Virus record (IMG/VR): IMGVR_UViG_3300047560_001945
Span: 1-20,658 of that record
Reading direction: 5' to 3' (one strand)
Length of the DNA stretch: 20,658 nucleotides
DNA from: a virus
The notes beneath the pieces were generated by a model that worked only from the letters and a program-made list of their open reading frames with translations, was not told where the DNA came from and made no database searches. Positions 2,833-14,999 of this stretch are shown in pieces; within the stretch, counting starts at the first letter, position 1; each line of letters begins with the position of its first letter. The translations under genes were made by a program, and so were the position numbers.

Positions 2833-4740
2833 ATGTCTAATTCACTACCGACCCTTTATCAGCAGTTTATTCATCTTTCACGATATTCGAGATTCATGTG
2901 GGATCAGGGTCGACGAGAATCATGGGAAGAAACAATCGGGCGTTTCTTCGATTTCTTTGAAGGTCATCTGAAAGAACAACACAACTATGACGTTAAGGTA
3001 TATCGTAAGGAACTCGAAGATGCAGTTCTTTCGCAAAAGGTAATGCCTTCGATGCGTTGCGTTATGACTGCAGGTGAAGCACTGAAACGCGAGAACGTCG
3101 CGGCTTATAATTGCTCGTATGTTGCTGTTAATACACCACGAGCCTTTGATGAAATCCTATACATCCTTATGAATGGAACAGGCGTAGGTTTTTCAGTAGA
3201 ATCAAAAGACGTAGAACAACTCCCCATCATTGCCGAAGAATTCCATCCCTCAGATACCACTATCGTAGTTGCCGACTCCAAGTTGGGTTGGGCTAAAGCT
3301 CTCAAAGAACTCGTTCATCTTCTTTACTCTGGACAGATTCCTAAGTGGGATCTCAGCAAGATTCGTCCAGCAGGAACTCCTCTCAAGACATTCGGTGGTC
3401 GTGCGTCTGGTCCAGAACCTCTCGATGCTCTTTTCAAGTTCTCAGTTGATATCTTTAAGAAGGCTGCTGGTCGTCGTCTGAATACACTGGAGTGTCACGA
3501 TATTGTATGTAAGATTGCCGATATTGTTGTTGTGGGCGGCGTTCGTCGTTCTGCTCTCATTTCTCTTTCAGACCTGAATGATGATCGTATGCGCACAGCT
3601 AAGTCTGGTCAGTGGTGGCTTGATGAATCACAGCGTGCGCTCGCGAACAACTCTGCTGTCTATAAAGAAAAGCCTGATATGGGTATCTTTATGGAAGAGT
3701 GGAAATCGCTCTATGAATCAAAGTCTGGTGAGCGTGGTATCTTCAATCGTGCTTCTGCTAAGGCTACTGTTAACAAGCACGGTCGTCGCGATACGAACTA
3801 TGACTTTGGTACGAATCCTTGCTCAGAGATTATTCTGCGCGATAAGGAATTCTGTAATCTGTCAGAAGTTGTTGTTCGTGCAACTGACACTATGGAAACG
3901 CTCAAGGAAAAGGTTTACTGGGCGACTATCCTCGGAACGTGGCAGTCAACTCTGACGAATTTTAAGTATCTTTCATCATCATGGAAGAAGAATTGTGAAG
4001 AAGAACGTCTTCTCGGCGTTTCAATGACAGGTATCATGGACAATGATCTCACCAACGGAAAAACTCCAGGACTCGCAGGACGTCTCGAAGAACTCAGAGC
4101 AATCGCAGTTGAAACCAACAAGAAGTTTGCTAGGGAGATCGGCATCCCACAGTCTGCTGCTGTCACTTGCGTTAAGCCCTCTGGTACTGTTAGTCAGCTT
4201 ACTGATGCTGCTTCTGGTATTCATGCACGCCACAATCCATACTATATTCGAACTGTTCGCGCGGATAAGAAAGATCCACTAGCAGCTCTTATGATCGACG
4301 CTGGTGTTCCAGTTGAAGATTGCGTGATGCGTCCGAACAACGTGTATGTGTTCTCGTTCCCAATGAAGGCTCCAGAGAACGCAGTATTCCGTCAGGATAT
4401 GTCTGCTATCGAACAGCTGGAACTCTGGGTTACTTATCAGGACCACTGGTGCGAACATAAGCCATCTGTCACGATTTCTGTTAAGGAACATGAATGGCTC
4501 GACGTTGGTGCGTGGGTTTACAATCACTTTGACAAGATGTCTGGTGTTTCGTTCCTTCCATTCAGCGAGCACGTTTATAAGCAAGCTCCTTATCAGGATT
4601 GCTCGAAAGAAGAATACGAAGCGTTCGATGCTAAGATGCCTAAGTCTATCGAGTGGAGCAAACTCAAAGACTACGAAAAGACTGACACTACAACTGGGGC
4701 GCAGGAACTTGCTTGCGTTGCGGGCGGCTGTGAGATCTAA
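2833..4740 (+). CDS. Adenosylcobalamin-dependent ribonucleoside-triphosphate reductase (class II RNR)
   Basis: 635 residues. It resembles the monomeric class II reductases (Lactobacillus RTPR type, also found in cyanophages), which reduce ribonucleoside triphosphates to deoxy forms using coenzyme B12. Motifs seen: the catalytic loop NPCSE with the presumed thiyl Cys C330 and E332; the active-site disulfide partners C94 (YNCSYV) and C341 (EFCNLSE). The C330-C341 spacing of 11 matches the C408-C419 spacing recalled for the Lactobacillus enzyme. NGTGVGFS, VKPSGTVSQL and a C-terminal redox pair C628-x4-C633 (CVAGGC) are also present. The protein is shorter than the Lactobacillus enzyme (about 740 residues), as phage forms usually are. 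GGAG precedes the ATG. A B12-dependent enzyme implies a host that makes or imports cobalamin, as rhizobia do. Confidence 0.93.
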   Translation: MSNSLPTLYQQFIHLSRYSRFMWDQGRRESWEETIGRFFDFFEGHLKEQHNYDVKVYRKELEDAVLSQKVMPSMRCVMTAGEALKRENVAAYNCSYVAVNTPRAFDEILYILMNGTGVGFSVESKDVEQLPIIAEEFHPSDTTIVVADSKLGWAKALKELVHLLYSGQIPKWDLSKIRPAGTPLKTFGGRASGPEPLDALFKFSVDIFKKAAGRRLNTLECHDIVCKIADIVVVGGVRRSALISLSDLNDDRMRTAKSGQWWLDESQRALANNSAVYKEKPDMGIFMEEWKSLYESKSGERGIFNRASAKATVNKHGRRDTNYDFGTNPCSEIILRDKEFCNLSEVVVRATDTMETLKEKVYWATILGTWQSTLTNFKYLSSSWKKNCEEERLLGVSMTGIMDNDLTNGKTPGLAGRLEELRAIAVETNKKFAREIGIPQSAAVTCVKPSGTVSQLTDAASGIHARHNPYYIRTVRADKKDPLAALMIDAGVPVEDCVMRPNNVYVFSFPMKAPENAVFRQDMSAIEQLELWVTYQDHWCEHKPSVTISVKEHEWLDVGAWVYNHFDKMSGVSFLPFSEHVYKQAPYQDCSKEEYEAFDAKMPKSIEWSKLKDYEKTDTTTGAQELACVAGGCEI

Positions 4741-9102: not shown

Positions 9103-9708
9103 ATGATTATGGCTGCTGATGACTATGATGATATGGATAACTGGGAAGTTAAGCAACACGCTAAGGTAAGTAAAAAGAGGATCGGTTCAATTGTTCCTGC
9201 TGTTAAGTTTAAGATCCGCGTTCGCGACGACAGTATCGAGGGACCCAATCCTTATCGTTGGGATGATCTGACTTCTTATCAGATCTTTGGTGGCAAGCGA
9301 GTTATCGTATTCTCACTTCCAGGCGCATTTACGCCAACCTGTTCAACGATGCAGCTTCCTGGTTTCGAAGAAAAGTATGATCAGTTCAGACAAGAACACG
9401 GTATCGACGAAATCTACTGTTTGTCTGTTAACGACGCATTCACGATGAATGCTTGGGCAAAAGCTCAAGGCATTAAGAATGTAAAAGTCATTCCAGATGG
9501 TAACATGGATTTTACGCATGGAATGCGCATGACTGTTGACAAGAGCAATCTTGGTTTTGGTGATCGTAGCTGGCGTTATGCTATGATTGTCAATAACGGT
9601 ATCATCGAAGCATGGTTCGAAGAGCCAGGATTCATGAATAACTGCGAGACTGATCCGTATGGCGAAACGTCTCCAGAAAAAATCATGGACTGGTTAAACT
9701 GGAAATGA
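9103..9708 (+). CDS. Peroxiredoxin (Prx5-like)
   Basis: 201 residues. AGGAG (9092-9096) precedes ATG 9103. The active-site motif PGAFTPTCST carries the peroxidatic cysteine C80. The rest (GGKRVIVFSLPG, LPGFEEKYDQF, IYCLSVNDAFTMNAWAK, VIPDGNMDFTHGM, WRYAMIVNNGIIEAWF) is typical of Prx5/hybrid-type enzymes that reduce hydrogen and organic peroxides. C181 (MNNCETDP) is a possible resolving cysteine. The first 27 residues are an acidic extension without a signal peptide, so a cytosolic enzyme is expected. Phage peroxiredoxins are uncommon; here it could protect against host or plant-derived oxidative stress. A tRNA gene follows after 9 bases. Confidence 0.92.
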   Translation: MIMAADDYDDMDNWEVKQHAKVSKKRIGSIVPAVKFKIRVRDDSIEGPNPYRWDDLTSYQIFGGKRVIVFSLPGAFTPTCSTMQLPGFEEKYDQFRQEHGIDEIYCLSVNDAFTMNAWAKAQGIKNVKVIPDGNMDFTHGMRMTVDKSNLGFGDRSWRYAMIVNNGIIEAWFEEPGFMNNCETDPYGETSPEKIMDWLNWK

Positions 9709-9717
9709 AAAAGAATT

Positions 9718-9792
9718 GCGGGTATAACTCAGGGGTAGAGTGTCAGCCTTCCAAGCTGTTCGTCGCAGGTTCGAATCCTGTTGCCCGCTCCA
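9718..9792 (+). tRNA. tRNA-Gly(TCC)
   Basis: 75 bases with encoded CCA. Acceptor GCGGGTA/TGCCCGC, D-arm AACTCAGGGGTAGAGT, anticodon loop CTTCCAA (anticodon TCC), T-arm GCAGG-TTCGAAT-CCTGT. It stands alone between the peroxiredoxin and porin genes. Confidence 0.95.
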
Positions 9793-9795
9793 AAT

Positions 9796-9826
9796 ATCGC
9801 GAATGGTTAGAAATAGCCATCGCGAT
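9796..9826 (+). other. Hairpin between tRNA-Gly and porin promoter
   Basis: ATCGCG-a-ATGG (9796-9806) is complementary to CCAT-CGCGAT (9817-9826) with one bulged A and a 10-base A-rich loop. There is no T-run, so it is more likely a processing or protection hairpin than a terminator. The 63-residue frame crossing it is an artefact of the tRNA. Confidence 0.5.
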
Positions 9827-9852
9827 TGCTATCTGTAACTGGATGGCAATTG

Positions 9853-9881
9853 TTGCAGGTGCTGTCCTGCTAATATATAAT
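9853..9881 (+). promoter_or_regulatory. Promoter candidate for porin gene
   Basis: TTGCAG at 9853-9858, 17-bp spacer, TATAAT at 9876-9881, about 24 bases before the porin ATG, with AAGGAG in between. The -35 is less perfect than the CTTGACAA class and lacks its flanking bases, so it may be read at another time or strength. Confidence 0.6.
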
Positions 9882-9905
9882 GTGTTCATCAACTAAGGAG
9901 TAGAA

Positions 9906-11276
9906 ATGAAAAAGACACTAACAGCTCTGGCTCTTCTTGCCTCCACCAGCATTGCTGGTGCGGTAGATCTGCCATCTGGAAAGGCTCAACCTCAGGCGCC
10001 AGCAAACTATGTTAAGGTTTGCGATGCTTATGGTGCAGGCTTTTTCTATATCCCTGGTACGGACTCTTGCTTGCGCGTGGGCGGCATGATTCGTCAGGAC
10101 TTTGCTTATGTTCCGTCTGGTGATACCTACAAGGTGACTGCTGGAGCTAAGGCAATCAGCACATACGGTGCTGGTCAGAATACAACTGGTTGGGAAACTC
10201 GCGGTCGTATTGATCTCGATGCTCGCACACCAACCGACTTCGGTACTGTAAGAACAGCTGCTGGTATTCGATTCAGCCGTTCTTCTGGTACTCTTGCTGA
10301 CGTAGCAAATCCAACAGGTGCTTCGCAGTCTGCAACGACTACGACTCCTATCATGGAATATGCTTACATTCAGTTCGCTGGTATCACTGCTGGTGCTTCG
10401 AGAGACAACTTCTCGTTCATGCCAAGCGCAGTTTACTCAGCACAGCACTGGGCATCGTTCATCATCAATCCTAAGCAGCTTGCTTACACAGCTACCTTCG
10501 GTGGTGGTCTGAGTGCAACTGTTGCTGTTCAGGATGCTACTGATACGGCAATTGCTCCTGTTGATGGTGTAAATGCTACTACGACTTACTATGCTCCACA
10601 GAACGAAAAGAATCTTAATCTCGTAGGCAACGTCCGTTGGGATCAGCCTTGGGGTTCAGTTCAGGTTATGGGTGCTGGTCGTCAAGCACAGGTTCTTGAC
10701 ACAACTGGTCTGACTTATGATCAGACTAAGAATGTATGGGCAGCTGGTGCTGGTGCTAAGATCAACCTGCCATTCACTGGTCATAAGGATAACGCTCTGT
10801 GGCTCACAGGTGCTTATGCTGACGGTATGACTGAATACACTACAGCTTATGGCTCAAACAAGATTGCTAACTGGAAACGCGATCTGAATGGCTGGCAGTT
10901 CAATCAGCCTTCAGTTATCGCTTACAGCACTGGCATCGAATCTGTTAAGTCATGGAATGCTGCTGCTCTTTATCAGCACTGGCTGACTGACAAGTATCGT
11001 ATCAATGCGTTTGGTTCATACGGTCAGATCCAGGCTCCAGAAACAGCTAAGGCTCTGGTGTTCGATGCTAAGAAGGGCTTCGGTGATGCTACTGTTTGGT
11101 CAGTCGGTTCAAACTTCGCTTGGCTTCCTACAAAGGATTTCGAGCTTGGTGTTGAAGGCATCTACTCAAACATGAAGCAGGATGTCCGTTATACGCTCGC
11201 TTCTTCAACGAACAAGGTTGAAAAGGAAAGCGATAACAACTGGACTATGCGTCTTCGCGCAGAACGTCGCTTCTGA
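9906..11276 (+). CDS. Rhizobiales-type outer-membrane porin (Porin_2 family)
   Basis: 456 residues, full length. A Sec signal peptide ends at about A19 (AIAGA|VDLP-type cut after STSIAGA). The mature N-terminus has the signature VCDAYGAGFFYIPGTDSCLRVGG with C39 and C55, shared with Brucella Omp2b and rhizobial RopA-type porins, followed by alternating beta-barrel strands and a terminal Phe (LRAERRF), as required for outer-membrane insertion. GC and codon use resemble the surrounding phage genes, not a recent host insert. It has its own promoter (9853-9881) and AAGGAG Shine-Dalgarno. Such porins are 16-stranded trimeric diffusion channels. In a phage it could replace the host receptor porin (superinfection exclusion), change permeability, or be a decoy. 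The related precedent is the porin gene of lambdoid phage PA-2. Confidence 0.92.
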   Translation: MKKTLTALALLASTSIAGAVDLPSGKAQPQAPANYVKVCDAYGAGFFYIPGTDSCLRVGGMIRQDFAYVPSGDTYKVTAGAKAISTYGAGQNTTGWETRGRIDLDARTPTDFGTVRTAAGIRFSRSSGTLADVANPTGASQSATTTTPIMEYAYIQFAGITAGASRDNFSFMPSAVYSAQHWASFIINPKQLAYTATFGGGLSATVAVQDATDTAIAPVDGVNATTTYYAPQNEKNLNLVGNVRWDQPWGSVQVMGAGRQAQVLDTTGLTYDQTKNVWAAGAGAKINLPFTGHKDNALWLTGAYADGMTEYTTAYGSNKIANWKRDLNGWQFNQPSVIAYSTGIESVKSWNAAALYQHWLTDKYRINAFGSYGQIQAPETAKALVFDAKKGFGDATVWSVGSNFAWLPTKDFELGVEGIYSNMKQDVRYTLASSTNKVEKESDNNWTMRLRAERRF

Positions 11277-11395
11277 TGATTAAGGCTGCATACGTCTGTG
11301 CAGCCTTATTATTCCTAATGGCTGGATTGTTGCTTTGGATAGCATACGGTCCAGCCATTTTCTTTGCAATGCAGACGCTATATAATATGTGTTAG
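11276..11395 (+). CDS. 39-residue hydrophobic micro-ORF coupled to porin
   Basis: The porin stop and an ATG overlap as TGATG (11274-11278). The frame then runs 39 codons to TAG 11393-11395, ending on the first base of the following tRNA. The product is one long hydrophobic stretch (YVCAALLFLMAGLLLWIAYG, then PAIFFAM), a plausible single-pass or hairpin membrane micro-protein with Cys8 and a terminal Cys. No independent Shine-Dalgarno exists beyond the end of the porin gene, so reinitiation would be needed. Its first codons lie in a strong inverted repeat (11281-11308), which may instead be a terminator. Real gene or chance frame is undecided. Confidence 0.4.
   Translation: MIKAAYVCAALLFLMAGLLLWIAYGPAIFFAMQTLYNMC
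11281..11308 (+). terminator. Hairpin after porin, possible terminator
   Basis: TAAGGCTGCA (11281-11290) pairs perfectly with TGCAGCCTTA (11299-11308) across an 8-base loop, followed by TTATTCCT. The stem is strong but the U-tract is poor, so termination may be partial and allow read-through to the tRNA. Confidence 0.55.
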
Positions 11396-11472
11396 CCCAT
11401 GTAGGCCAACAGGTTAGAGTCAGCGGACTTAAAATCCGCACAGTGTCAGTTCGAATCTGACCATGGGCACCA
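11395..11472 (+). tRNA. tRNA with Leu(TAA) anticodon, class I shape
   Basis: 78 bases with CCA. Acceptor GCCCATG/CATGGGC, anticodon stem GCGGA/TCCGC enclosing CTTAAAA (anticodon TAA), T-arm GTCAG-TTCGAAT-CTGAC. The variable region is only about 5 bases, whereas bacterial tRNA-Leu has a long variable arm. It would read UUA if charged with leucine, but its charging identity is uncertain. Confidence 0.85.
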
Positions 11473-11476
11473 TTTT

Positions 11477-12601
11477 ATGATCACGTTCAATCCTGATAAG
11501 TTTGGTTTCTATTCTGTAGGATCGCAATCAACCTACAGTAAATATGAAGCATTCGAACTATCAAGAACATCAAACGTTCCTGTTGTATGGAATTTCAACG
11601 ACAACATCTTTAGCAAGATGGACTGGAAAAAAGAGCCAGAGACTGATCTATGGGAGATGTATAAGCAACGAGCGAGGCAGATCCGTGAAGCATATGATTA
11701 TGTGGTACTTTGGTACAGCGGCGGTAGTGATAGTCACAACATTCTTATGGCGTGGTTAGAAGCTGGACTAAAGATCGACGAGATTGCTACGACTTGGAAC
11801 TATCAGGCGACAGGTAACTATCAGAATCACTACAATGCAGAAATCACAAATGTTGTTCTTCCCGATATCAAGAAACTAAAAGACGCTGGATACGACTTCA
11901 ACTTTCGCATTGTAGATATCAGCCAGTTTGTGGTTGATCTATTCGATACATGGAAACTAGATTTCGAATACAATGTCAACTTCCACTTCTCACCCAATAA
12001 TCCAGCAAAGCATCTCTTTCGTGAAAAGATTGATGACTACAAGAATCTAATTGCTCAAGGTAAAAAGCTGTGTTTCGTTTGGGGTAAAGAAAAGCCTGCT
12101 ATCATTCGAGAGAACGGAAAACACTACTTCGTGTTCACCGACAATATCGACAACACAGTTGGTCCTTATGTTCAACGCAATTACTATAAGGGCTGGTATG
12201 ATGAGCTATTCTACTGGACTCCAGATTTTCCTGAGTTACCAATCAAGCAAGCTCATGTCTTGAACAACTTCATCAAGTATTGCGAAGATCGTAATCTGTT
12301 CGAATCAATCAACGAAGAACGTTTCCAACCAAACGGATTTTCTAATCGCTTTGATATGCATCTGAAAGATCCGTATGTAAAAACGGTTCTGTATCCCAAG
12401 TGGTCGAATGACATTTTCTGTAATGGTAAAACAGCTTCGTTCACATATAGTATCAGAGATAGCTGGTTCCTAAAAGGCAATCTAGATGCGACAGCTAGAT
12501 ATATGCAGATATCGGATTCTTACTTCAAACACGTCGACTCTGAGAACAAAACTCGTAGAAGTATCCGTCCACAATTCAGTCAAAGGTATTGGATAGAATA
12601 A
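11477..12601 (+). CDS. PP-loop ATP pyrophosphatase-fold protein
   Basis: 374 residues. The PP-loop SGGSDS (81-86, in VVLWYSGGSDSHNILMAWLE) is the ATP-binding motif of N-type ATP pyrophosphatases (QueC, TilS/ThiI, asparagine synthetase C-domain, PAPS reductase). These adenylate a carbonyl or sulfur acceptor. The remaining 290 residues are rich in aromatic residues and do not match one of these enzymes by eye; there is no Cys array as in QueC and no signature of TilS. Similar proteins of unknown role are common in phages of marine and soil alphaproteobacteria. It opens the operon that ends with a radical SAM gene. TAATG couples it to the next gene. No Shine-Dalgarno is seen before ATG 11477, which lies 4 bases after the tRNA. 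Confidence 0.78.
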   Translation: MITFNPDKFGFYSVGSQSTYSKYEAFELSRTSNVPVVWNFNDNIFSKMDWKKEPETDLWEMYKQRARQIREAYDYVVLWYSGGSDSHNILMAWLEAGLKIDEIATTWNYQATGNYQNHYNAEITNVVLPDIKKLKDAGYDFNFRIVDISQFVVDLFDTWKLDFEYNVNFHFSPNNPAKHLFREKIDDYKNLIAQGKKLCFVWGKEKPAIIRENGKHYFVFTDNIDNTVGPYVQRNYYKGWYDELFYWTPDFPELPIKQAHVLNNFIKYCEDRNLFESINEERFQPNGFSNRFDMHLKDPYVKTVLYPKWSNDIFCNGKTASFTYSIRDSWFLKGNLDATARYMQISDSYFKHVDSENKTRRSIRPQFSQRYWIE

Positions 12602-12825
12602 TGTTCACTGAAACATATAAAAGAACTGTTGCTAAGATTATCACATGGCGAGTTCTGCTCACATGTGTTAACTTTACATATACATATGTTGTTACTGGTG
12701 ATTGGAAAGCTGGTCTAGCTGTAGCAGGTCTTGCCGCTATCTTCAATTCATTCATCTACTATCTACACGAGCGCGGATGGAATCTTATCAAATGGGGACG
12801 CGATGATCGTAGAGAACAAGAATAA
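12601..12825 (+). CDS. DUF2061 small membrane protein
   Basis: 74 residues from ATG 12601 (TAATG overlap). The pattern TYKRTVAKIITWRVL, VVTGDWKAGLAVAGLAAI, then YYLHERGWNLIKWG is that of DUF2061, a two-helix inner-membrane protein (KTxTWRxxAxxxT...GxxxxAxxxxxxExxxKxxLYYxHERxW). Its function is unknown, and it is often next to sulfur or cofactor genes in bacteria. Here it sits between PP-loop and oxygenase-like genes, perhaps anchoring the pathway at the membrane. Confidence 0.85.
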   Translation: MFTETYKRTVAKIITWRVLLTCVNFTYTYVVTGDWKAGLAVAGLAAIFNSFIYYLHERGWNLIKWGRDDRREQE

Positions 12826-13597
12826 TCTAACTCGTATGCGAGCTGAAGAAGCTGTGGAAGTGTTTGGTACTCCCGAATACACCGAGCTTGAACGAGCATA
12901 CGGAAAATATCTACTTGTTCCTTTTGCTATTCCAAAGATCGTACCACATGACATAGAAAAGTTTGTGGATTTCTATGATCGTAATGCTAAGTTTGCACTG
13001 AAGATGAAAGAAGATATCGCCGAAGATTTTCTGAAGAATGATCGACCAGAAGGTAAAACACCGTATCGTTCTATCGACAGTTGCGAAGCTACTTCCAGAA
13101 TGATCTGGGGTAAGAACTATGTGCCAGAAATCTTCACAGAGTTTCCAGAGATATTTGATCAGATTCATGACAATCTACCATTTCTAGATCGCGGATTCAT
13201 GTGGACTATGTGGTCGAGCGACAAAGATATTATCCCGCATCGCGACATGCGATCGATGCTTGATATGCCAATTCGTTTGCGCGTTATGTTGTATGATGAC
13301 AACCCAACAGAAACGCTAAGTCTGCATCTTGCTCCTGTAGATAAGCCTATCGTTGGTCCTTGGAAAATCGACATTCCCGAAGATACGAATTCATTCGCAT
13401 GGAATAATCTTCGCACGAGACACGAAAGCAAAAAGTATGAAGGTCATAAGAAAATTCTCATGATAGGTTTTGCGAACTATCCAGGTAAAAAGATGAATCA
13501 GTATGTTGATCTTTTGGATCGAAGTATCGGTCGTTATCATAATCGTCTATTGATAGACAAATTCACAACAGCTTCAGACTATATCAACGGAGTCTAA
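12803..13597 (+). CDS. Possible Fe(II)/2OG-dependent oxygenase-like protein
   Basis: 264 residues from ATG 12803, overlapping the DUF2061 gene by 23 bases. ATG 12836, after that stop, is an alternative; no Shine-Dalgarno decides. IIPHRDMR gives an H-x-D metal motif, and about 60 residues further NNLRTRHESKKYEGHKKILMIGF gives the distal His followed by basic residues that would bind 2-oxoglutarate, in a cupin-like strand pattern (IRLRVMLYDDN...FAWNN). The order and spacing fit a double-stranded beta-helix oxygenase such as Asp/Pro hydroxylase-like phage proteins. The call is an inference. The other motifs are unrecognised. It lies directly before the radical SAM gene with 1 intervening base after its stop. 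Confidence 0.6.
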   Translation: MIVENKNNLTRMRAEEAVEVFGTPEYTELERAYGKYLLVPFAIPKIVPHDIEKFVDFYDRNAKFALKMKEDIAEDFLKNDRPEGKTPYRSIDSCEATSRMIWGKNYVPEIFTEFPEIFDQIHDNLPFLDRGFMWTMWSSDKDIIPHRDMRSMLDMPIRLRVMLYDDNPTETLSLHLAPVDKPIVGPWKIDIPEDTNSFAWNNLRTRHESKKYEGHKKILMIGFANYPGKKMNQYVDLLDRSIGRYHNRLLIDKFTTASDYINGV

Positions 13598-13598
13598 A

Positions 13599-14999
13599 AT
13601 GAGTTTCACTAAAGACACATTCTGCACGATGCCTTGGTCGTCAATCCTAATTCTTCCATCGGGTGATTTCAAGATTTGCTGCTTCACTGGTCACACGTTG
13701 CCTAACGGCGGCGATTCACATGGTATCTCGATCGACGATAGTGGTCAGACTATGAACGTTCTGACGCATTCTATTCTTGATGCGATCAACTCAAAGTTCC
13801 ACAAAGAAATTCGTTTAGCCCAGTCAAAAGGCGAACGTCATCCGATCTGTAAAGTCTGCTGGGATCGTGACGATGCTGCTAATCGTCAGGGTGTTCTGTC
13901 GACTTCACTTCGTGTCGTGCGTTCTTACTATCAGAACGTAGAAGGAGCAAATAACAAAGAACAGAATGGATACAGACGTATTGGGGGTCATCCACTTGTT
14001 GGATCAGCTACACCAGAGAATGCCGTCGATTTCTTATCGAATCCTGAGACTGGTGAGATTAAGCCAATCATGCCGATCTCACTCGACATTCGCTTCAGCA
14101 ATCTCTGCAATGCGAAGTGTGTTATGTGCGAGCCGCTCTATTCAACTCTCTGGTACGAAGACCATGAGAAGGTAACGGGTAGCGATGTATTCAATACGGG
14201 TATGCGCAAATGGAAGATCGAAAAGACTCCAAAGGTTATGGGTGGCTATACCTACTCTTCCGATATGCCTGAGTGGCGTGACGATCCCCGTTGGTGGAAA
14301 CAGCTGGACGAGCTTGCTCCTCATCTTGCTCATGTCTATATCACAGGTGGCGAGCCATTCCTTCAGCCTCAGCACGATGTGTTCCTTGATCGTTTGATCG
14401 AAGCTGACTATGCGAAGAACATCGTTCTTGAATACGATACGAATCTCAGCGTCATCAATAAGAAAATCCTCGAGCGCCTATCAAAGTTCAAGGACATCAT
14501 CCTTCGTATCTCGACGGACGACATTCAGGAAAGATACAATCTCATCCGCTTCCCGCTGAAGTTCGATACACTCCTGAACAATATGTCGATGCTCAAGGAC
14601 TACGGTCTCGACAAGAACGTAGATACGATCACGACTTGCATTGGTATCTATTCATTGTATGCGCCTATGCGTATGCACGAATTCTTTTCGCCGATGGGAT
14701 ACGATAGATACTTCATTCGTATCTTGCGTTCACCGAAACCTGTGGATATGGCTTATCTGCCGCGCAAGGTCAAGGAAAAGATCATCCGCGACTACGACAC
14801 GAACAATTCACTTCCTCACTTCCATAAGACCCACATCTCAGGCTATCTGAAGAACAACATCGACCTCGTGAGCGATGAAGAAGGTCGTCAGCATATTGCA
14901 TCGTTCGTCCGATATATGGAAGCTCTGGATCGCACCCGTGGTACGAACTGGAAAGAAACGTTCCCAGAAATCGTCGAGCTACTGAAGCTGGCATACTGA
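13599..14999 (+). CDS. Radical SAM protein with twitch/SPASM-like N-terminus
   Basis: 466 residues; GGAG at 13589-13592 and ATG 13599. The core has FSNLCNAKCVMCEP with the [4Fe-4S] ligands C170-x3-C174-x2-C177 and the SAM-binding YITGGEPFLQP (GGEP, 250-253). The N-terminus carries extra Cys: C9 (FCTMPW), C27-C28 and C84-x2-C87 (CKVCW), resembling an auxiliary-cluster twitch domain placed before the core. Twitch/SPASM enzymes often modify peptides (RiPP), proteins or sugars. A substrate is not visible; no precursor-peptide gene was found adjacent. It is the last gene of the PP-loop operon and is followed by a strong terminator. Similar radical SAM proteins occur in other large phages with unknown roles. 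Confidence 0.93.
   Translation: MSFTKDTFCTMPWSSILILPSGDFKICCFTGHTLPNGGDSHGISIDDSGQTMNVLTHSILDAINSKFHKEIRLAQSKGERHPICKVCWDRDDAANRQGVLSTSLRVVRSYYQNVEGANNKEQNGYRRIGGHPLVGSATPENAVDFLSNPETGEIKPIMPISLDIRFSNLCNAKCVMCEPLYSTLWYEDHEKVTGSDVFNTGMRKWKIEKTPKVMGGYTYSSDMPEWRDDPRWWKQLDELAPHLAHVYITGGEPFLQPQHDVFLDRLIEADYAKNIVLEYDTNLSVINKKILERLSKFKDIILRISTDDIQERYNLIRFPLKFDTLLNNMSMLKDYGLDKNVDTITTCIGIYSLYAPMRMHEFFSPMGYDRYFIRILRSPKPVDMAYLPRKVKEKIIRDYDTNNSLPHFHKTHISGYLKNNIDLVSDEEGRQHIASFVRYMEALDRTRGTNWKETFPEIVELLKLAY

Follow-up and report, generated by a model that had tools for sequence, protein, structure and literature searches.

A predicted Porin_2 porin as one allele of an exchangeable outer-membrane protein slot in T4-like phages

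Until now, temperate lambdoid phages and a handful of environmental contigs have been the main sources of phage-encoded porins, and the BFVD collection also holds proteins annotated as porins. The lambdoid phage PA-2 is temperate, and its porin Lc, which belongs to the enterobacterial OmpC type, is thought to alter the outer-membrane protein (OMP) content of the host. The transcript of this phage porin is the source of a small RNA, IpeX, that controls host OmpC (PMC12197685). A viral porin gene linked to glnK-amtB, OmpL, has been described on an environmental phage contig (PMC8115048). Virulent phages that target porins often disable their receptors, as is the case for Cor of T1 and Llp of T5, and porin receptors thereby become unavailable during lytic infection (PMC11990801). 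On the host side, Sinorhizobium phage PhiM9 and at least ten other phages use RopA1 as their receptor (PMC10132094; PMC6256558).

The locus described here resembles PA-2 in that a phage codes for a porin, but the porin is of the Porin_2 family, lies in T4-like phages, follows a structured leader and is swapped among relatives with an 8-strand OMP. It differs from viral OmpL, which is attributed to Bacteroidetes hosts and sits beside an ammonium transporter (PMC8115048), and from Cor and Llp, which disable a porin, whereas the phages of this locus would make a porin or another barrel themselves and arrive at a comparable outcome. A literature search, with subscription journals mostly outside it, did not turn up any T4-like phage reported to carry a Porin_2 gene, and the literature searched held no description of an exchangeable OMP slot with a leader. 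An earlier note on this DNA had called such a phage porin unusual, a judgement that the databases bear out: the protein has no match among INPHARED phage records at E <= 0.01 (tblastn) and none among the PHROG families.

The gene occupies positions 9906–11276 on the plus strand of the window, by which we mean the whole stretch analysed, an IMG/VR virus record of 20,658 bases. The boundaries of the reading frame are exact, with an ATG start and a TGA stop enclosing 456 codons for amino acids, and its assignment draws on Pfam, a structure model, the alignment and dN/dS. The earlier note had proposed a full-length Rhizobiales-type porin, a claim it staked on a significant Porin_2 match; Porin_2 (PF02530) does match residues 31–447 over most of the model (9–355 of 357), with an E value of 1.4e-50 and 173.2 bits against a gathering cut-off of 22 bits. 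The N-terminus, MKKTLTALALLASTSIAGA, is signal-like over residues 1–19 (9906–9962), and with the cleavage site placed by eye the mature protein would begin V-D-L-P-S. This signal-like peptide, the VCDAYGAG...C signature of Omp2b/RopA-type porins and the terminal Phe456, all of which had been pointed out before, are present in the sequence. The AlphaFold2 model, computed from 55 aligned relatives from phages and cells, is a 16-strand barrel (mean pLDDT 80, pTM 0.80) whose closest solved fold is DcaP (6eus), with other outer-membrane channels and classical porins ranking next; a sequence search of the PDB gave no match. Loop L3 (residues 165–189, 10398–10472), which the model and the regional identities mark as the likely constriction loop, is conserved between the phage porins and their sister cellular porins (identity 0.59).

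Scans of viral contigs found relatives of the porin, at 56–95% identity, in 14 further IMG/VR contigs (the twelve of L002–L006 and L012–L018, then L106 and L163), so that the gene is present in 15 viral records including the window, in two T4-like contexts. The gene order around the window porin is common to an 85 kb relative whose porin is 93% identical. This relative carries a gp32-type SSB (phrog_224), a baseplate hub (phrog_150), a tube cap (phrog_230), a wedge protein (phrog_232), a T4 RNase H C-terminal domain, a gp6 homologue and 26 tRNAs, and the window itself encodes a primase (phrog_47) and SegE. The description of the phage as T4-like thus holds through the gp32, baseplate and RNase H genes of the 85 kb relative. 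So does the description of its codon use as phage-like: GC3 of the porin is 0.41, within the 0.37–0.60 of the phage genes and against 0.76–0.87 in the nearest cellular porins, and its codon distance is 0.103 to the phage and 0.242 to cells. Among the phage copies dN/dS is 0.09–0.31, indicating purifying selection. As a side observation, the B12-type ribonucleotide reductase of the window (2833–4740) is closest to that of Puniceispirillum phage HMO-2011 (64% identity), though the phage is T4-like.

In a tree of 107 sequences, all 13 phage porins included group into a single clade (SH-aLRT 100), nested among porins from MAGs of Beijerinckiaceae and of unclassified Hyphomicrobiales. Among the cellular matches listed, the closest (L019–L024, from Beijerinckiaceae/Hyphomicrobiales MAGs) are 46–50% identical, and the flanks of these copies look cellular, with a GC content of about 0.6; a closer relative in cells may lie beyond the matches listed. 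The phage proteins share with cellular Porin_2 porins of Hyphomicrobiales, such as Omp2b and RopA1, the family, the 16-strand model, L3 and the N-terminal region; they differ in forming their own clade, in AT-richer codons, in conserved loops of their own and in a mature residue 1 that is usually not Ala. The search and tree that the earlier note had suggested, as a way to expose a recent host contig misassembly, exclude that outcome through the many independent contigs, the phage flanks on both sides and the separate phage clade. Between the two phage lineages the porins are 55–60% identical and the gp32 proteins 54–59%, about equal, and since this matched divergence accompanies a separate clade, the porin is probably old in phages. 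Taken together, the frame at 9906–11276 is a genuine, intact and phage-owned gene for a predicted outer-membrane porin.

The porin lies between phage tRNA genes, as had been noticed at the outset. Both were called by ARAGORN on the plus strand, tRNA-Gly(tcc) at 9718–9792 and tRNA-Leu(taa) at 11395–11472, and the latter is the downstream border of the slot by synteny in relatives. In nearly all window-like phages a distance of 114 nt separates the tRNA-Gly gene from the OMP start downstream of it. Further upstream is a peroxiredoxin gene (9103–9708, plus strand; Redoxin PF08534, phrog_2281). Downstream is a PP-loop-like gene (11477–12601, plus strand), named from its SGGSDS motif only and from synteny, with no match in Pfam; it is the usual downstream neighbour of the OMP at two loci. 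A radical SAM/SPASM gene (13599–14999, plus strand; Pfam, synteny) is often found alongside the PP-loop gene and the OMP. We observed that the whole stretch 11477–14999, comprising the PP-loop-like gene, a possible oxygenase-like gene (12731–13597) and the radical SAM/SPASM gene, often accompanies the OMP at both loci, and these genes may form a small modification pathway.

When slot content was read between tRNA-Gly and tRNA-Leu of sister phages, found via neighbouring genes, a porin was present in the window-like group and a protein of 171–183 residues with an OMP_b-brl domain (PF13505) in most of the others. The model of this small OMP has 8 strands at a pLDDT of only 68 and resembles barrels of the OmpA/Ail/OprF type. 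The barrels of the two proteins are unrelated in sequence, but their signal and linker regions are alike, reaching 56–62% identity over 32 residues in some pairs. Matches of 45–62% in L135–L150 had the appearance of divergent porins; these are really 8-strand-type OMPs in which the leader peptide alone matches. The exchange recurs at a second locus between tRNA-Arg and gp32, where the porin of the L015–L018/L106/L163 lineage comes after tRNA-Arg and before genes leading to gp32, and where L230 and L231 have a small 8-strand-type OMP within the same flanks. In the tree of core genes, phages with the small barrel are spread widely and those with the porin fall within one clade, intermixed with small-barrel phages; the slot changes state three times on the best tree, one of these changes being forced by well supported branches. 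Searches for Porin_2 in the examined records whose slot holds a small OMP gave no match. One record, L163 (167.8 kb), departs from strict alternation in having both proteins, in different places, so the two are not strictly exclusive. From gene order and alignment, then, the porin is one allele of an exchangeable OMP slot, swapped with an 8-strand OMP at two loci.

The 8-strand allele has relatives in 56 viral contigs (the L195–L249 entry), and more than half of those checked lie directly 3' of a tRNA gene for Gly, Lys or Arg. Sinorhizobium phage Phosso, Agrobacterium phage Atu_ph07 and Ochrobactrum phage vB_OspM_OC, which are much larger phages or belong to other lineages, also carry relatives of the small allele at 33–39% identity, and that of Phosso adjoins a tRNA-Gly(tcc) gene as in the slot. 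For these three phages the searchable literature yielded no description of a porin allele or a slot swap. Their hosts, together with the porin tree, suggest that the phages of the porin slot probably infect Hyphomicrobiales-type alphaproteobacteria or near relatives. Core genes also match phages of Pelagibacter, Methylophilales and cyanobacteria, matches that reflect the wider T4 superfamily.

Both alleles are preceded by the same leader (9793–9905, plus strand), which was defined by ungapped alignment, folding and covariation. The stretch that separates tRNA-Gly from the OMP start has a constant length and aligns without gaps across 19 phages. RNAalifold predicts three hairpins on the plus strand, H1 (9799–9823), H2 (9828–9847) and H3 (9855–9870), and the leader carries a Shine-Dalgarno sequence, AAGGAG, at about 9895–9900. 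With the structure fixed, 94.5% of cells are paired, both sides have changed in 10 of the 20 pairs, and covariation is 0.447, compared with a shuffle score of 0.236 (sd 0.017) and with slid controls that reach 0.12 at most. The structure was evaluated on the same alignment that yielded it, and related sequences can exceed shuffles without any structure; an effect of kinship alone is made less likely here by the compensatory changes and by the low scores of the slid controls. An Rfam scan detected two tRNAs and nothing else. The leader is overlapped by a small reading frame (9705–9896, plus strand) with the sequence ...ICNWMAIVAGAVLLIYNVFIN, possibly a single-TM peptide, whose stop lies 9 nt before the porin ATG. 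This frame, which also overlaps tRNA-Gly, contains no stop in any of the 19 phages and is most variable at the third codon position, a coding-like pattern. Because the coding signal and the covarying hairpins fall in the same bases, the stretch may be both an RNA element and a gene for a small membrane protein. We also note that the tRNA-Gly gene sits within this conserved frame, and that L005 and L147 retain the frame without the tRNA.

The 3' side is built in a similar way. A hairpin follows the porin stop directly (11281–11308), with both arms changed between relatives, and the alignment shows a terminator-like hairpin at 11320–11356, in which GGCUGG...CCAGCC precedes a T-rich run; both are on the plus strand and are common to the two allele types. 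A frame of 39 residues, MIKAAYVCAALLFLMAGLLLWIAYGPAIFFAMQTLYNMC (11276–11395, plus strand), overlaps the porin stop and is likewise conserved with both alleles. The slot is a compact unit of tRNA-Gly, structured leader, one OMP gene, hairpin and terminator, and tRNA-Leu. A possible, though rather doubtful, extension is that it is a dedicated RNA-controlled cassette in which the leader drives whichever barrel occupies the slot, so that a swap would alter surface identity and decide which phages are excluded. The structured leader may regulate the OMPs of the slot.

The promoter that the earlier note assigned to the porin did not stand up. The motif concerned, TATATAAT at 9874, has no -35 partner and lies inside the conserved small frame; a scan upstream of the window porin supports no sigma-70-like site, the region having 5 sites where shuffles have 7.2. 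The phage does have many promoters resembling TTGACA-17-TATNAT, and in 7 of 19 slots a perfect TTGACA-17-TATAAT stands 11–14 nt before tRNA-Gly, a position at which the window lacks it. L006 has a TTGACA/TAATAT pair immediately before the porin that resembles the many others of the phage. As a consensus host-type promoter lies ahead of the slot in many relatives, early expression of the slot OMP is likely in the main group, and lineages may differ. Just upstream of the porin, L016 has the T4-late-like sequence TATAAATA, and L015 and L018 have TATAAGTA, a possible sign that the porin of that lineage is expressed late.

The predicted surface loops of the phage porins are unusually constant, unlike those of cellular porins. 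At strand identities of 0.6–0.7, loop identity is 0.57 in phage pairs and 0.24 in cellular pairs. The contrast is smaller against the sister cellular clade: with gaps skipped, loop identity is 0.47–0.59 in phages and 0.33–0.40 in cells at strand identities of about 0.55–0.64, and 0.67–0.73 and 0.50–0.62 at about 0.71–0.78; as the pairs are non-independent, these values describe a pattern and not a statistical test. L3 and L6 have changed little between the phage porins and their cellular sisters, while L1, L2 and L8 are only 0.03–0.21 identical. The constancy could also arise if a transiently expressed protein merely escapes the diversifying selection seen in cells. The mature N-terminus differs as well. 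Peptidoglycan-linked OMPs of Hyphomicrobiales begin with an Ala-Asp motif, and with cleavage placed as above nearly all cellular porins read Ala-Asp, residue 1 being Ala in 87 rows, whereas the phage porins have Val (8), Thr (3), Gly (1) and Ala (1), 12 of 13 being non-Ala. The window porin itself reads V-D in place of Ala-Asp, and residue 1 is Thr or Ser in 11 of 16 small phage OMPs. Both phage types have Asp at mature position 2 followed by a linker rich in PS-K/R/G, and the changed residue before this Asp could alter peptidoglycan linkage or signal cleavage only.

What the two barrels share for the phage is a question that a lytic T4-like lineage with a fixed, exchangeable OMP slot makes testable. 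Since a barrel without a large pore replaces the porin at two loci, the shared function would be that of an outer-membrane surface protein, and uptake is unlikely to be the main role. The reading we lean towards, with slightly less than even confidence, is that the slot remodels the surface of the infected cell and lowers adsorption, most likely by receptor replacement or superinfection exclusion; it is favoured by the slot swap, by the constancy of the phage surface loops, by the promoters that make early expression likely in the main group, by the receptor role of RopA1, which we take to be a Porin_2 member, and by the disabling of receptors in virulent porin-targeting phages. The phage OMP would be made early in infection, pass through Sec, be folded by the host BAM complex and appear on the surface, where the phage set of loops would replace or dilute the host's own members of these two OMP families, so that fewer related phages, or fewer of the phage's own progeny, adsorb. 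Host OMPs are stable and a lytic cell is short of time, which may make simple dilution weak. A serious rival, though rather less probable, is envelope upkeep, in which the phage substitutes for the abundant peptidoglycan-linked OMPs of the host after host shut-off and keeps the outer membrane intact until lysis. In Brucella, LD-transpeptidases attach Omp2b and Omp25 to peptidoglycan, and loss of the link leads to outer-membrane blebbing (PMC12729407); the swapped families correspond to Omp2b-like and Omp25-like proteins, the small allele being classed as Omp25-like via PF13505 and by eye. The shared Asp and linker and the early promoters fit such a role as well, yet the loss of Ala from most phage proteins of both types may weaken the linkage, and upkeep alone leaves the conserved but non-cellular loops unexplained.

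The earlier note had offered changed permeability as an alternative, and this is weakened by the frequent occupation of the slot by an 8-strand barrel without a large pore. In its fullest form, as an auxiliary metabolic gene by which the porin would raise outer-membrane permeability for nutrients or metabolites, we consider it improbable: L3 is conserved with sister cellular porins, DcaP is the closest solved fold and viral OmpL adjoins an ammonium transporter gene (PMC8115048), but the large pore is dispensed with at two loci in sister phages and no transporter gene adjoins the porin. About equally improbable is a decoy, that is, surplus phage OMP shed on vesicles or debris that titrates competing phages. 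The presumed kinship with the receptor RopA1 and the conserved surface loops are in its favour, but if the shed OMP bound the receptor-binding protein of the phage that made it, that phage's progeny would be trapped too, and loops L1, L2 and L8 differ from those of sister cellular porins. Very improbable, finally, is a slot that is only a tRNA-side recombination hotspot collecting host genes useless to the phage; the position beside tRNA genes and the state changes on the core tree would suit it, whereas purifying selection on the porin, the presence of OMPs in the slots read through, the same two OMP classes at two separate loci and the conserved leader with covarying hairpins speak against it. 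Surface remodelling, the reading we prefer, may be general among phages that infect alphaproteobacteria.

Two other sets of genes came to light in the same contigs and scans. In the 85 kb relative (L100:6078–8997, or 26078–28997 of that relative), a DctP-type solute-binding protein with TATAAATA before it and no evident signal peptide is followed by a secreted-looking, barrel-ending protein of 611 residues without a Pfam match; a link between this DctP-like gene and uptake through the porin is not supported, as the gene is far away, has no evident signal peptide and has TATAAATA upstream. A different Porin_2-like gene, MNIKSLLIGSAAALAAVSGAQAADAIVA... and Omp2b-like, is present on temperate-phage-like contigs (L111:9848–10960, L116:7991–9118, L112–L115 and L118–L120), several of which have isolate-type identifiers and some of which could be host flanks. 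In this set the gene lies near endolysin and tail genes, much as lambdoid porins lie near lysis genes.
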